DNA from: Maridesulfovibrio sp.
Lineage (GTDB): Bacteria > Desulfobacterota > Desulfovibrionia > Desulfovibrionales > Desulfovibrionaceae
Reading direction: 5' to 3'
DNA: 64,000 bases
Assembly: GCF_963678865.1 (NCBI RefSeq)
Contig: NZ_OY787459.1
Span: 1,826,501 to 1,890,500 of the forward strand
Below the pieces are notes generated by a model. It did not search any database and was not told where the DNA came from. It saw nothing but the letters and a program-made list of their open reading frames with translations. Both the position numbers and the translations under genes were made by a program. Positions within the stretch are counted from its first letter, which is position 1; every line of letters starts with the position of its first letter. This document shows positions 1-2,251 of this stretch, in pieces.

Positions 1-713
1 AACAGCTGCAGAATGACCCGTGGGATGAAGTCGGCGACAAATTCAAGGCCGGTGATAAAATCAGCGGTACTGTTGTCCGCTGTGCCGATTTCGGCGCATT
101 CGTTGAAATCGCACCCGGCATTGAAGGGCTGGTCCACGTATCCGAGATGAGCTACACCAAGCGCGTCCATAAGCCGGAAGACGAAGTATCCCCCGGCCAG
201 GAAGTAGCTGTGATGATCAAGGAGATCGATCCGGTAAAACGTCGTATCGGCCTGTCCATGAAAGACGCTGCAGGTGATCCTTGGATGGACATGGCTGACA
301 CCTTCAAGGTTGGTCAGGAAGTGGAAGGAACAGTGGAGAACCGTGCTGAATTCGGTATCTTCATCAACCTCGCTCCCGGCATAACCGGACTGCTGCCCAT
401 GTCCCGCATCACCCGCTCCGGCAAACAGGCCGAGCTGGAAGCACTGAAGCCCGGCGACAAGGTTACCATCTCCATTGAAGAGATCAATACTGCAGACCGC
501 AAGGTAACCCTCACCGCAGGTGAAGCCAAAAAAGACGATGGAGACAAAGACTGGAAAGAATACGCCAAGTCCGCACCCAAAAAGCCTGCCCCGCGCAAAT
601 CCGCTCCCAAAACCAGCTCCACAACAAGTAGTTCCGGTGGTTCTGGTGGTTCCGGTGGATTCGGCGGCCTGCTCGGCGACAAGCTTCAGGAAGCCATGAA
701 GAACAAAAAATAA
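1..713 (+). CDS. S1 RNA-binding domain protein (ribosomal protein S1-like), C-terminal part
   Basis: The reading frame is already open at base 3, so the gene starts outside the window and only about 236 C-terminal residues are present. Two consecutive S1 (OB-fold) repeats are visible. Each has the G-x-V-x-x-x-x-x-FG-x-F-V/I-x-x-x-PG-I-x-GL-x-x-S pattern and ends in a basic/acidic LSMKDAAGDPW-like linker. The last 60 residues are Lys/Pro-rich and then Ser/Gly-rich, ending in a helical, basic tail. S1 repeats bind single-stranded RNA in ribosomal protein S1 and related translation or decay factors. Whether this is rpsA itself or a paralogue cannot be decided without the N-terminus. A terminator hairpin follows immediately. 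Confidence 0.85.
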   Translation, partial: QLQNDPWDEVGDKFKAGDKISGTVVRCADFGAFVEIAPGIEGLVHVSEMSYTKRVHKPEDEVSPGQEVAVMIKEIDPVKRRIGLSMKDAAGDPWMDMADTFKVGQEVEGTVENRAEFGIFINLAPGITGLLPMSRITRSGKQAELEALKPGDKVTISIEEINTADRKVTLTAGEAKKDDGDKDWKEYAKSAPKKPAPRKSAPKTSSTTSSSGGSGGSGGFGGLLGDKLQEAMKNKK

Positions 714-720
714 TTACCCT

Positions 721-760
721 AAAGGCCGGGCATTCCTTTGGGAAGTCCGGCCTTTATATT
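721..760 (+). terminator. Rho-independent terminator behind the S1-domain gene
   Basis: Perfect 9-bp stem AAAGGCCGG (721-729) / CCGGCCTTT (747-755) with a 17-nt loop, 7 nt after the stop codon. The downstream tract is only weakly T-rich (TATATT). The same TATATT (755-760) could act as a -10 box for the next gene. Confidence 0.7.
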
Positions 761-766
761 TCTGCC

Positions 767-991
767 ATGGATAACAACAAGACCATCAAATGCTGGAGAG
801 ATTGTTGAACAGGATTCAAGGAGGTGAGTTCGCACCTTCAAGAGATCCAATCCGGCATGAGTGTAAAAGCCGAAATCCGCGCAGACCAGCGCTCCAACAT
901 TGACATTATCTGCCGGGTCAGAAAATCGGAAATAATCGCAGAAGAGAACATCCCTGAAAACCTTATCCTGCTGACCCTGCGTAAAAAATAA
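767..991 (+). CDS. Candidate small selenoprotein, TusA/SirA-like fold (in-frame TGA at 806-808)
   Basis: Seen: from ATG 767 the frame reads MDNNKTIKCWRDC, then TGA (806-808), then 60 more sense codons to TAA 989-991. With the TGA read as selenocysteine the product is 74 residues. Eighteen bases after the TGA lies a hairpin: AGGTG (822-826) / CACCT (833-837), loop AGTTCG with G at the second loop position, and an outer helix GGAT (812-815) / ATCC (845-848). This geometry fits the bacterial SECIS model (apical loop with an early G, roughly 16-37 nt from the UGA). The predicted order (strand with Cys-x-x-x-Cys-Sec, helix, strands) resembles small TusA-like sulfur carriers. The next gene, a TSUP transporter, begins 5 nt later without its own Shine-Dalgarno, which argues that this frame is translated. 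Weak points: no Shine-Dalgarno before ATG 767 (possibly leaderless), and no homologue comparison. The alternative is a 44-residue ORF from ATG 857 or a decayed gene. Confidence 0.6.
811..848 (+). promoter_or_regulatory. Putative bacterial SECIS-like hairpin
   Basis: Two-part helix directly 3' of the in-frame TGA at 806-808: outer GGAT (812-815) / ATCC (845-848), an internal loop, inner AGGTG (822-826) / CACCT (833-837), loop AGUUCG. The loop starts 18 nt after the TGA. This is the place and shape expected for the SelB-binding element of bacterial selenoprotein mRNAs. It is a prediction by eye only. Confidence 0.5.
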
Positions 992-996
992 AAATC

Positions 997-1722
997 ATGT
1001 CCGCTTTCCTGCTTGTACCTGCAATCTTCCTTATCGCGGGCCTGCTCCAAGGCCTTACCGGATTCGGCTCAGCCCTTATAGCCATGCCGTTGCTTGCGTT
1101 CATTATCGACATCAAAACAGCAGTAGCGGCCTGCACCCTTTGCGGAATAACCATAAACCTGAAAATGTGCTGCAACCTGCGCTCTAATATGGACTCGCGC
1201 AAAATATTACCCCTGATTATAGGCAGCATTCCGGGAGCAGTCTTCGGCACACTTGCCCTCAAGGAAGTGGACGGCAACCTAATAACTTTCTTTCTGGGAT
1301 TTCTGGTCGCCGGTTACGCCGGGTACTCACTGCTGGTGCGCCCCATTGTTCTCAAACTGAACCCGGCATGGGGTTATCTTTCCGGATTCCTGACCGGTGC
1401 CATAACTGCGGCAGTAAGTGCCGGTGGTCCCCCCACCATCATATATTCATCTCTCATGGGATGGAAAAAAGATGACTTCAAAGCAACGCTCTCCGGCTTC
1501 TTTCTGGCGGCTGCGTCTATGGCTGCACTCGGGCATCTGATCAGCGGACTCACAACATTTTATTCCTTCCAGCTCTTCCTTGCTTCCCTGTTACCGGTTC
1601 AGGCGGGAGTCTTCATCGGACACAGGCTTGCAGGAAAGGTCTCGGAAGACCTTTACAGAAGAATAATCATGATTTTGCTTGTCTTCATGGGAATCATGCT
1701 TATTTTTCAAAGCACAGGTTAA
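997..1722 (+). CDS. TSUP (TauE/SafE) family membrane transporter
   Basis: A 241-residue polytopic membrane protein of the sulfite exporter TauE/SafE family, whose members move sulfite, thiosulfate, sulfoacetate or other small anions. The N-terminus has the family hallmark LLQGLTGFGSALIAMPLL. A second half-repeat follows near residues 125-150 (GxLTGAITAAVSAGGPP), as expected from the internal duplication of TSUP proteins. About seven or eight hydrophobic segments are visible. The start at ATG 997 lies 5 nt after the stop of the candidate selenoprotein and has no Shine-Dalgarno, suggesting translational coupling. TusA-like carriers and TSUP-type permeases are often paired, so a role in sulfur or selenium anion handling is plausible. 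The substrate is unknown. Confidence 0.85.
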   Translation: MSAFLLVPAIFLIAGLLQGLTGFGSALIAMPLLAFIIDIKTAVAACTLCGITINLKMCCNLRSNMDSRKILPLIIGSIPGAVFGTLALKEVDGNLITFFLGFLVAGYAGYSLLVRPIVLKLNPAWGYLSGFLTGAITAAVSAGGPPTIIYSSLMGWKKDDFKATLSGFFLAAASMAALGHLISGLTTFYSFQLFLASLLPVQAGVFIGHRLAGKVSEDLYRRIIMILLVFMGIMLIFQSTG

Positions 1723-1750: not shown

Positions 1751-2251
1751 ATGTTCGCTAAAATTTTTCTGGGTTTTGTCCTTATTCCCCTGATTGATCT
1801 CTACATTCTGGTACAGATCGGTTCCAAAATCGGGACACTCAATGCCATTGCCCTCTGCCTGCTGACCGCCTTTGTGGGCGCGGCTCTCGCTAAATCACAA
1901 GGCGTGGCCACCATGCAAAAAGTTCAGGAAAACCTGAACAAAGGCATCATGCCCGCCGAAGATATCCTTGACGCGGTGCTGATTTTCCTCGCCGGACTGG
2001 TCCTGCTGACCCCCGGATTCATGACCGATATTTTTGGTCTGCTCATCCTCTTCCCGGTAACACGCGGCTACTTCAAAAAGATGCTCCGCAAACAGTTTGA
2101 AAACATGAAAAACAACCCGAACATCCATGTGGTTCACCACAACTCCGAATTCACTGCCTGGACCAACCAAGACCAGCCCAAACGCCGCATTGACCACGAT
2201 GTCATCGATGTTGAGGTGGAAGACAGAAAGGATAATAAGCCGCTGCAGTAG
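1751..2251 (+). CDS. fxsA: FxsA family membrane protein
   Basis: A 166-residue protein of the FxsA family. In E. coli FxsA is an inner-membrane protein whose overproduction relieves phage T7 exclusion by the F plasmid; its native role is unknown. The N-terminal hydrophobic hairpin (about residues 1-45), the conserved LLTPGFMTDIFGLLILFP segment (about 78-97) and the following basic stretch are characteristic. The C-terminal 50 residues are hydrophilic and acidic. The start ATG 1751 follows GGAG at 1737-1740. It lies 28 bp behind the TSUP gene, so cotranscription is likely, and a strong terminator follows. Confidence 0.85.
   Translation: MFAKIFLGFVLIPLIDLYILVQIGSKIGTLNAIALCLLTAFVGAALAKSQGVATMQKVQENLNKGIMPAEDILDAVLIFLAGLVLLTPGFMTDIFGLLILFPVTRGYFKKMLRKQFENMKNNPNIHVVHHNSEFTAWTNQDQPKRRIDHDVIDVEVEDRKDNKPLQ

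Follow-up and report, generated by a model that had tools for sequence, protein, structure and literature searches.

The closest described relatives of the protein considered here belong to the TusA/SirA family (Pfam: PF01206; E. coli TusA, TsuB = YeeD), the known members of which use a cysteine to carry sulfur. A TusA-type domain is also tied to selenium metabolism in YedF (TIGR03527, sulfurtransferase-like selenium metabolism protein). In the part of PMC5322559 consulted, YedF is described as a TusA-DsrE two-domain protein and is linked to selenium use together with LysR regulators of the NF040786 type. The selenoproteins HgcA, SaoL and KCU-star possess adjacent Cys and Sec residues (Table 1 of PMC13188914). 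The accessible portion of this 2026 catalogue counts 119 prokaryotic selenoprotein families and subfamilies and states that nearly all known selenoproteins have Cys homologs. According to an excerpt of PMC12013277, Cys homologs now seem to exist for every known selenoprotein, and the method used there may miss selenoproteins without them. SirA, TusA and YedF are absent from the text of PMC13188914 as far as it was accessible, and no report of a TusA- or SirA-type selenoprotein family was found in the literature searched (including the accessible part of PMC4210487), where the family could be mentioned under another name. A Sec-containing 'sulfurtransferase', the kind of which is unstated in the section of PMC8318568 consulted, occurs in a deltaproteobacterium.

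Our analysis focuses on a locus near the beginning of a 64,000-nucleotide stretch of a Maridesulfovibrio genome (the window). Its features are listed in Table 1. In the most likely reading, the gene represents a new family of selenoproteins, the role of which would be that of a C-U redox or chalcogen carrier. The best overall explanation, which we hold with considerable confidence, is a real small selenoprotein that is TusA-like in its predicted fold and belongs to a family undescribed in the sources checked. The TusA fold would thereby gain a selenoprotein family with members in at least 92 of the sampled Desulfobacterota genomes.

Table 1. Predicted selenoprotein locus and its surroundings; positions refer to the window.
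Feature	Positions	Strand	Evidence
Upstream neighbor, S1 RNA-binding domain protein (rpsA-like), open at window start	3..713	+	Pfam S1, E 4.6e-32; same neighbor at 15/62 loci
Inverted repeat of 9 bp, rich in G+C, behind the S1-domain gene and probably the terminator of that gene	721..755	+	Found by eye; not listed on this strand by the consensus scan
Predicted selenoprotein gene, 74-residue TusA-like protein with Sec at residue 14	767..991	+	TAA stop at 989-991; 92 distinct genomes have a member with a single in-frame TGA; AlphaFold mean pLDDT 88.8
In-frame UGA, predicted Sec14, directly after Cys13	806..808	+	Single TGA per genome in 92 member genomes; preceded by Cys in 73/73 unique and 18/18 further loci
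Predicted SECIS apical hairpin, stem 820-826/833-839, loop 827-832 (AGUUCG)	820..839	+	Folding; pairing beyond synonymous-recoding control; within published limits
Downstream neighbor, TSUP (TauE/SafE) transporter, separated by 5 nt from the selenoprotein stop	997..1722	+	Pfam TauE, E 3.4e-32; same neighbor at 15/62 loci
FxsA family protein, next downstream	1751..2251	+	Pfam FxsA, E 5.1e-36; same neighbor at 14/62 loci

The initial annotation of this locus, made from the DNA letters alone, had described a frame of 74 codons from ATG 767, interrupted solely by one TGA directly after a Cys (residues CWRDC, then U), as well as a 44-residue tail from an internal ATG at 857. Sequence and translation bear out all of these coordinates, and ATG 857 lies in the same frame; GTG 824 is another in-frame start able to yield a tail. 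The weak point conceded there is real as well: no Shine-Dalgarno sequence precedes ATG 767 in the window. A consensus scan of positions 560-1080 detects no sigma-70-like promoter. The ATG follows the inverted repeat behind the S1-domain gene by about 11 nt. Several members outside the window's genus do have a Shine-Dalgarno sequence, the choice of starts having favored such sites. Throughout the genus, the ATG stands soon after this terminator-like repeat (721-767 in the window), and the leader is often U-rich and without a Shine-Dalgarno sequence.

A lacking Shine-Dalgarno sequence and two internal starts, GTG 824 and ATG 857, whose frames could make the tail, would also fit ordinary termination at the UGA, with a short gene of its own or decayed sequence behind it and no Sec involved. 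The comparison with relatives argues strongly against it. When 58 relatives are searched with the read-through translation as query, 22 matches in 21 genomes result; 21 of the 22 contain exactly one TGA, which is retained at 28-80% identity, so that sequence decay is ruled out. Two profiles were derived for wider searches, namely A1 from the alignment of these 21 TGA-bearing matches and the broader A2 with 60 members. With A1, the order sample of 297 genomes yields matches in 53, of which 52 have one TGA, and the phylum sample of 395 genomes in 20 (18 with one TGA). A2, applied to the class of G479, finds matches with one TGA each in 18 of 55 genomes, and in the phylum sample it matches in 36 of the 395 genomes (32 with one TGA). 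The 52, 32 and 18 TGA-bearing genomes amount to 92 distinct ones among the Desulfobacterota samples. All 102 profile-found loci were located, and in the 73 distinct sequences among them the TGA is preceded by Cys without exception; the same single TGA after Cys is found in the 18 remaining members of the order sample.

Homologs aligned across the TGA, with either Cys or TGA at its column, had been proposed as a check; they exist, and the column is occupied by TGA in 92 genomes and by Cys in no member found. Neither of two observations named beforehand as counter-evidence was made. The region upstream of the TGA is conserved, in the form of CWxDC, DYRxDC or DSRxDC, and this conservation in relatives rules out a start at ATG 857. 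The order, class and phylum profile searches yield no match with TAA or TAG at the inner position. The final stop of the members, on the other hand, is TGA in 28, TAA in 17 and TAG in 17 of 62 loci, a set that includes 27 loci picked by a DNA pattern containing the TGA and AGTT and that is also used for the loop types below. TGA is thus still in use as a terminal stop, and since the final stops vary while the inner codon is always TGA, something must keep the inner one in place. The exact DNA pattern retrieves these 27 loci in named genomes of Desulfovibrio, Fundidesulfovibrio, Halodesulfovibrio, Desulfacinum, Desulforhabdus, Desulfoferrobacter, Syntrophobacteraceae, Desulfobulbaceae, Desulfobacterales, Desulfovibrionales and Deltaproteobacteria; it has no match in viral contigs, and tblastn finds no match in plasmids.

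Coding constraint is visible on both sides of the TGA. Among 16 loci of the window's genus, differences are in excess at third codon positions: by codon position they amount to 0.31/0.15/0.44 upstream of the TGA, 0.27/0.18/0.50 in the hairpin region and 0.42/0.34/0.62 in the remainder of the gene. An ordinary stop followed by a separate downstream gene is ruled out by the TGA-only conservation, this two-sided coding signal and the one predicted fold across the TGA. Together with the single TGA after Cys in 92/92 member genomes and the pairing constraint on the hairpin described below, these results make termination at the UGA extremely improbable.

What is unusual in this family is the lack of a close Cys form. 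In the samples of order, class and phylum of Desulfobacterota, no close homolog with Cys at the Sec position was found; E-values are given per genome, a few chance matches at E <= 0.01 are expected in 300-400 genomes, and a Cys form in these samples is improbable rather than impossible. The profile searches at these three levels return five stop-free matches, i.e. two TusA-type domains with a Cys near the Sec column (L166, E 2.8e-4; L167, E 0.0027) and three partial matches that were judged spurious. Several candidates were rejected as members. L022 (E 0.008), considered as a member without stop, is a longer unrelated frame; L068 and L069 are unrelated short matches, the match in G563 being the same place as L068; and L170 (G228, E 0.0026) and L175 (G543, E 0.01) are partial and were judged spurious, both with a Cys near the Sec column. 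If the absence of a close Cys form is true, the family would be a concrete case of the blind spot stated in the accessible part of PMC12013277.

The initial annotation had further claimed a SECIS-like hairpin downstream of the TGA. RNA folding confirms it, with a 7-bp stem. The 6-nt loop begins at a distance of 18 nt from the TGA and carries G at its second position. The hairpin lies within all limits that the consulted part of PMC13188914 gives for bacterial SECIS elements (loop of 3-9 nt, upper stem of 4-16 bp, G in the first two loop positions, spacing of 16-37 nt, MFE <= -7.5). Folding energy alone is only mildly unusual: positions 800-860 fold at -18 kcal/mol (z -1.83), and 7 of 200 shuffles are at least as stable. 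It is the comparison of relatives that takes the finding beyond chance. Across the 73 unique profile-found loci, pairing of the upper stem is complete (6/6) in 65, five pairs form in 6 loci and four in 2, giving a mean of 5.86; when the same proteins are recoded synonymously at the codon usage of the window, the mean is 3.92 (sd 0.10) and the maximum of 1000 runs 4.30. Serine in the loop of these loci is encoded by AGT in 51 of 52 cases, compared with 12.3% of the Ser codons in the long frames of the window. G occupies one of the first two loop positions in 72/73 unique loci, and the MFE is <= -7.5 in 72/73. The loop has six nucleotides in 28 and four in 34 of the 62 loci (27 of them pattern-chosen), and at one stem position the same set shows compensatory pairs, among them GC, AT and CG; the hairpin is kept by compensatory change. 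Rfam returns chance matches only.

The genome of the window possesses the machinery that the initial annotation had proposed to look for: SelA and SelB are present, and a single tRNA-Sec, with anticodon TCA, exceeds the gathering score (82.5 bits). The absence of selB/selC, named there as an argument against the gene, was thus not found. Some match to the SelB model TIGR00475 occurs in 58/58 relatives and exceeds the cut-off in 54/58 whether they carry the gene or not, which makes SelB co-occurrence non-discriminating; one carrier, G029 with an assembly of 430 contigs, has SelB below the cut-off. From the conservation of codon and hairpin and from SelA, SelB and tRNA-Sec in the genome, we infer a selenoprotein gene, in which SelB and Sec-tRNA would almost certainly read UGA 806-808 as Sec, guided by the hairpin.

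The initial guess of a TusA/SirA-type protein is supported by the predicted fold, by profile-profile comparison and by Pfam matches of some members, with the qualification that the signature motif is missing. The window protein has no match to PF01206 at E <= 1 in Pfam and none in NCBIfam 20.0 at E <= 10, and PF01206 matches 6 of the 60 members at E <= 0.1, the best at 2.1e-6. The selenoprotein models of NCBIfam 20.0 match no member; at E <= 0.1, the 60 members give eight stray weak families. AlphaFold applied to A2 predicts beta-alpha-beta-alpha-beta-beta (mean pLDDT 88.8, pTM 0.72), and this one fold covers both sides of the TGA. In structural comparison, VIA-align places the TsuB part of 8k1r first (Z 11.0 over 73 residues, 2.3 A), followed by SirA-like 3hz7 (Z 10.0) and TusA 3lvj (Z 9.2); the DNA-binding protein Alba, at Z 8.8, is tied with TusA by VIA-align's own rule, TsuB and 3hz7 being slightly above. 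Foldseek also ranks TsuB first, at E 2.7e-3, none reaching <= 1e-3. In profile-profile comparison, hhalign against 19 TusA sequences gives a probability of 93 and E 3.5e-7, and a profile of these 19 TusA finds members of the set of 60 with E-values as low as 5.3e-6. Among solved chains, a sequence-level profile search returns no TusA.

The protein thus shares with the TusA/SirA family the predicted whole-length fold, a chalcogen residue close to where helix 1 begins and profile similarity. It differs by the TGA in every member found and by the motif: CPxP is replaced by C-U-x-G in most members, with A or P for G in some, whereas CP is present in 19/19 TusA compared. The TusA cysteine aligns with Cys13 in some alignments and with Sec14 in one. 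The fold is very probably TusA/SirA/TsuB-like, and in the model the first helix would begin with Cys13-Sec14, no more than one residue away from the site of the sulfur-accepting cysteine of TusA. Because CPxP and a PF01206 match are missing, the window protein is TusA-like rather than TusA. It is likewise distinct from YedF, despite the shared TusA-type domain: YedF has two domains, and the genome's own copy (L070) has CPxP and no stop codon, whereas the window protein is a single domain with Sec.

A redox-active chalcogen carrier using the C-U pair is the likeliest mechanism, which we nonetheless judge to be somewhat short of probable. Sec14 would take up or reduce a sulfane-sulfur or selenium group, Cys13 would resolve the Sec14-bound group through a Cys-Sec bond, and the sulfur or selenium would then be passed on. 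The Cys-Sec pair could alternatively serve to bind a metal or mercury, as may hold for other proteins with CU motifs; such motifs are present in HgcA, in SaoL, which is MerB-like, and in MbdU, a metal-binding selenoprotein (Table 1 of PMC13188914, accessible part). We consider this very unlikely: the NCBIfam models of those families match 0/60 members, the same holds for HgcA, SaoL and KCU-star as the described proteins with adjacent Cys and Sec, and among 20 scanned neighbors the only metal-related ones encode the cobalt chelatase CbiK and a putative zinc-/iron-chelating protein with a CxxCxxCC domain.

Can the genomic context tell what such a carrier would deliver, and to whom? Within the window's genus, the S1-domain gene comes first, followed by the selenoprotein gene, TSUP and FxsA (15, 15 and 14 of 62 loci for the respective neighbors). 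The adjacency to the TSUP transporter, pointed out in the initial annotation, is correct as to position and weak as evidence of function, the TSUP neighbor occurring only in this genus (15/62 loci). It would suit a cytoplasmic partner of the transporter that moves a sulfur- or selenium-containing anion to or from the membrane, as TsuB does for the thiosulfate transporter TsuA; the top structural match is indeed the TsuB part of the TsuA-TsuB structures, and the close downstream TSUP gene recurs with the same layout in 15 loci of the genus. Yet neither the neighbor clustering of the 62 loci nor the 20 scanned neighbors reveal a TSUP gene outside the genus, and one genome of the genus (G016) keeps a TSUP without the selenoprotein, which renders this partnership quite unlikely. 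In G016 (L180), the S1-domain gene and a TSUP 62% identical to that of the window enclose no selenoprotein, i.e. a natural empty site.

In other lineages the neighbors are different. The upstream gene of 14 other loci falls into one cluster, the scanned member of which is a nucleotide-sugar dehydrogenase, and in five loci a gene of the CbiK cluster (one member scanned) lies within about 1.1 kb downstream. No fixed operon partner emerges when the neighbor clusters of the 62 loci are compared and neighbors scanned. Because neighbors differ between lineages, context does not fix the pathway.

In one branch, the gene is associated with a regulator. A LysR gene is located upstream on the same strand in 10 genomes, including those of L086, L064, L092 and L095 (tblastn, 58-76% identity to the L086 copy; for L080, only the last 58 residues are covered), and the four proteins scanned all score above the cut-off of NF040786, the model for LysR associated with selenium metabolism. 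From the LysR stop to the Asp-Cys-Sec codons, the distance is 19-38 nt in nine genomes and 176 nt in L156; as the 19-38 nt are counted to these codons, the start codons overlap or abut the LysR stop. The position behind a selenium-metabolism LysR in this branch favors selenium handling over general sulfur transfer, and the link provides a direct handle on how such bacteria sense or move selenium.

The same association underlies the main rival to the carrier, namely a sensor of selenium status that is made in full length only when Sec-tRNA is plentiful and then signals to the selenium-metabolism LysR or another partner. This would agree with the gene behind LysR in 10 genomes and the short spacing in nine of them, with the very small size of the protein and with the absence of a Cys form among the samples searched. 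Against it, the LysR link was observed in one branch only, the window's genus having the S1-domain gene, TSUP and FxsA instead, and the predicted fold is that of a known carrier family; we regard a sensor as unlikely.

The family may extend beyond the cytoplasm. Distant members (L158, L159, L161, L163, L165, L168 and L169) have in-frame N-terminal hydrophobic stretches, with lipobox-like motifs in L165 (LAGC) and L163 (VSSC), and their sequences suggest an exported lipoprotein branch. As a tentative wider reading, and with more doubt than about the redox mechanism, we propose a Sec-obligate TusA-like family without close Cys form, which would act with the selenium LysR in selenium homeostasis, be cytoplasmic mostly and a lipoprotein in one branch, and have gone unseen as homology-based finders rely on a Cys relative.

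Two members, L171 (G133) and L172 (G114), end long open frames of 571 and 589 codons, which could be fusions or chance frames. Nine loci have a downstream gene in one phosphorylase-superfamily cluster, of which the two scanned members (L083, L044) are futalosine hydrolases. In L084, L093, L040 and L021, the selenoprotein stop overlaps the gene of this cluster by 4 nt, hinting at possible translational coupling between the two.
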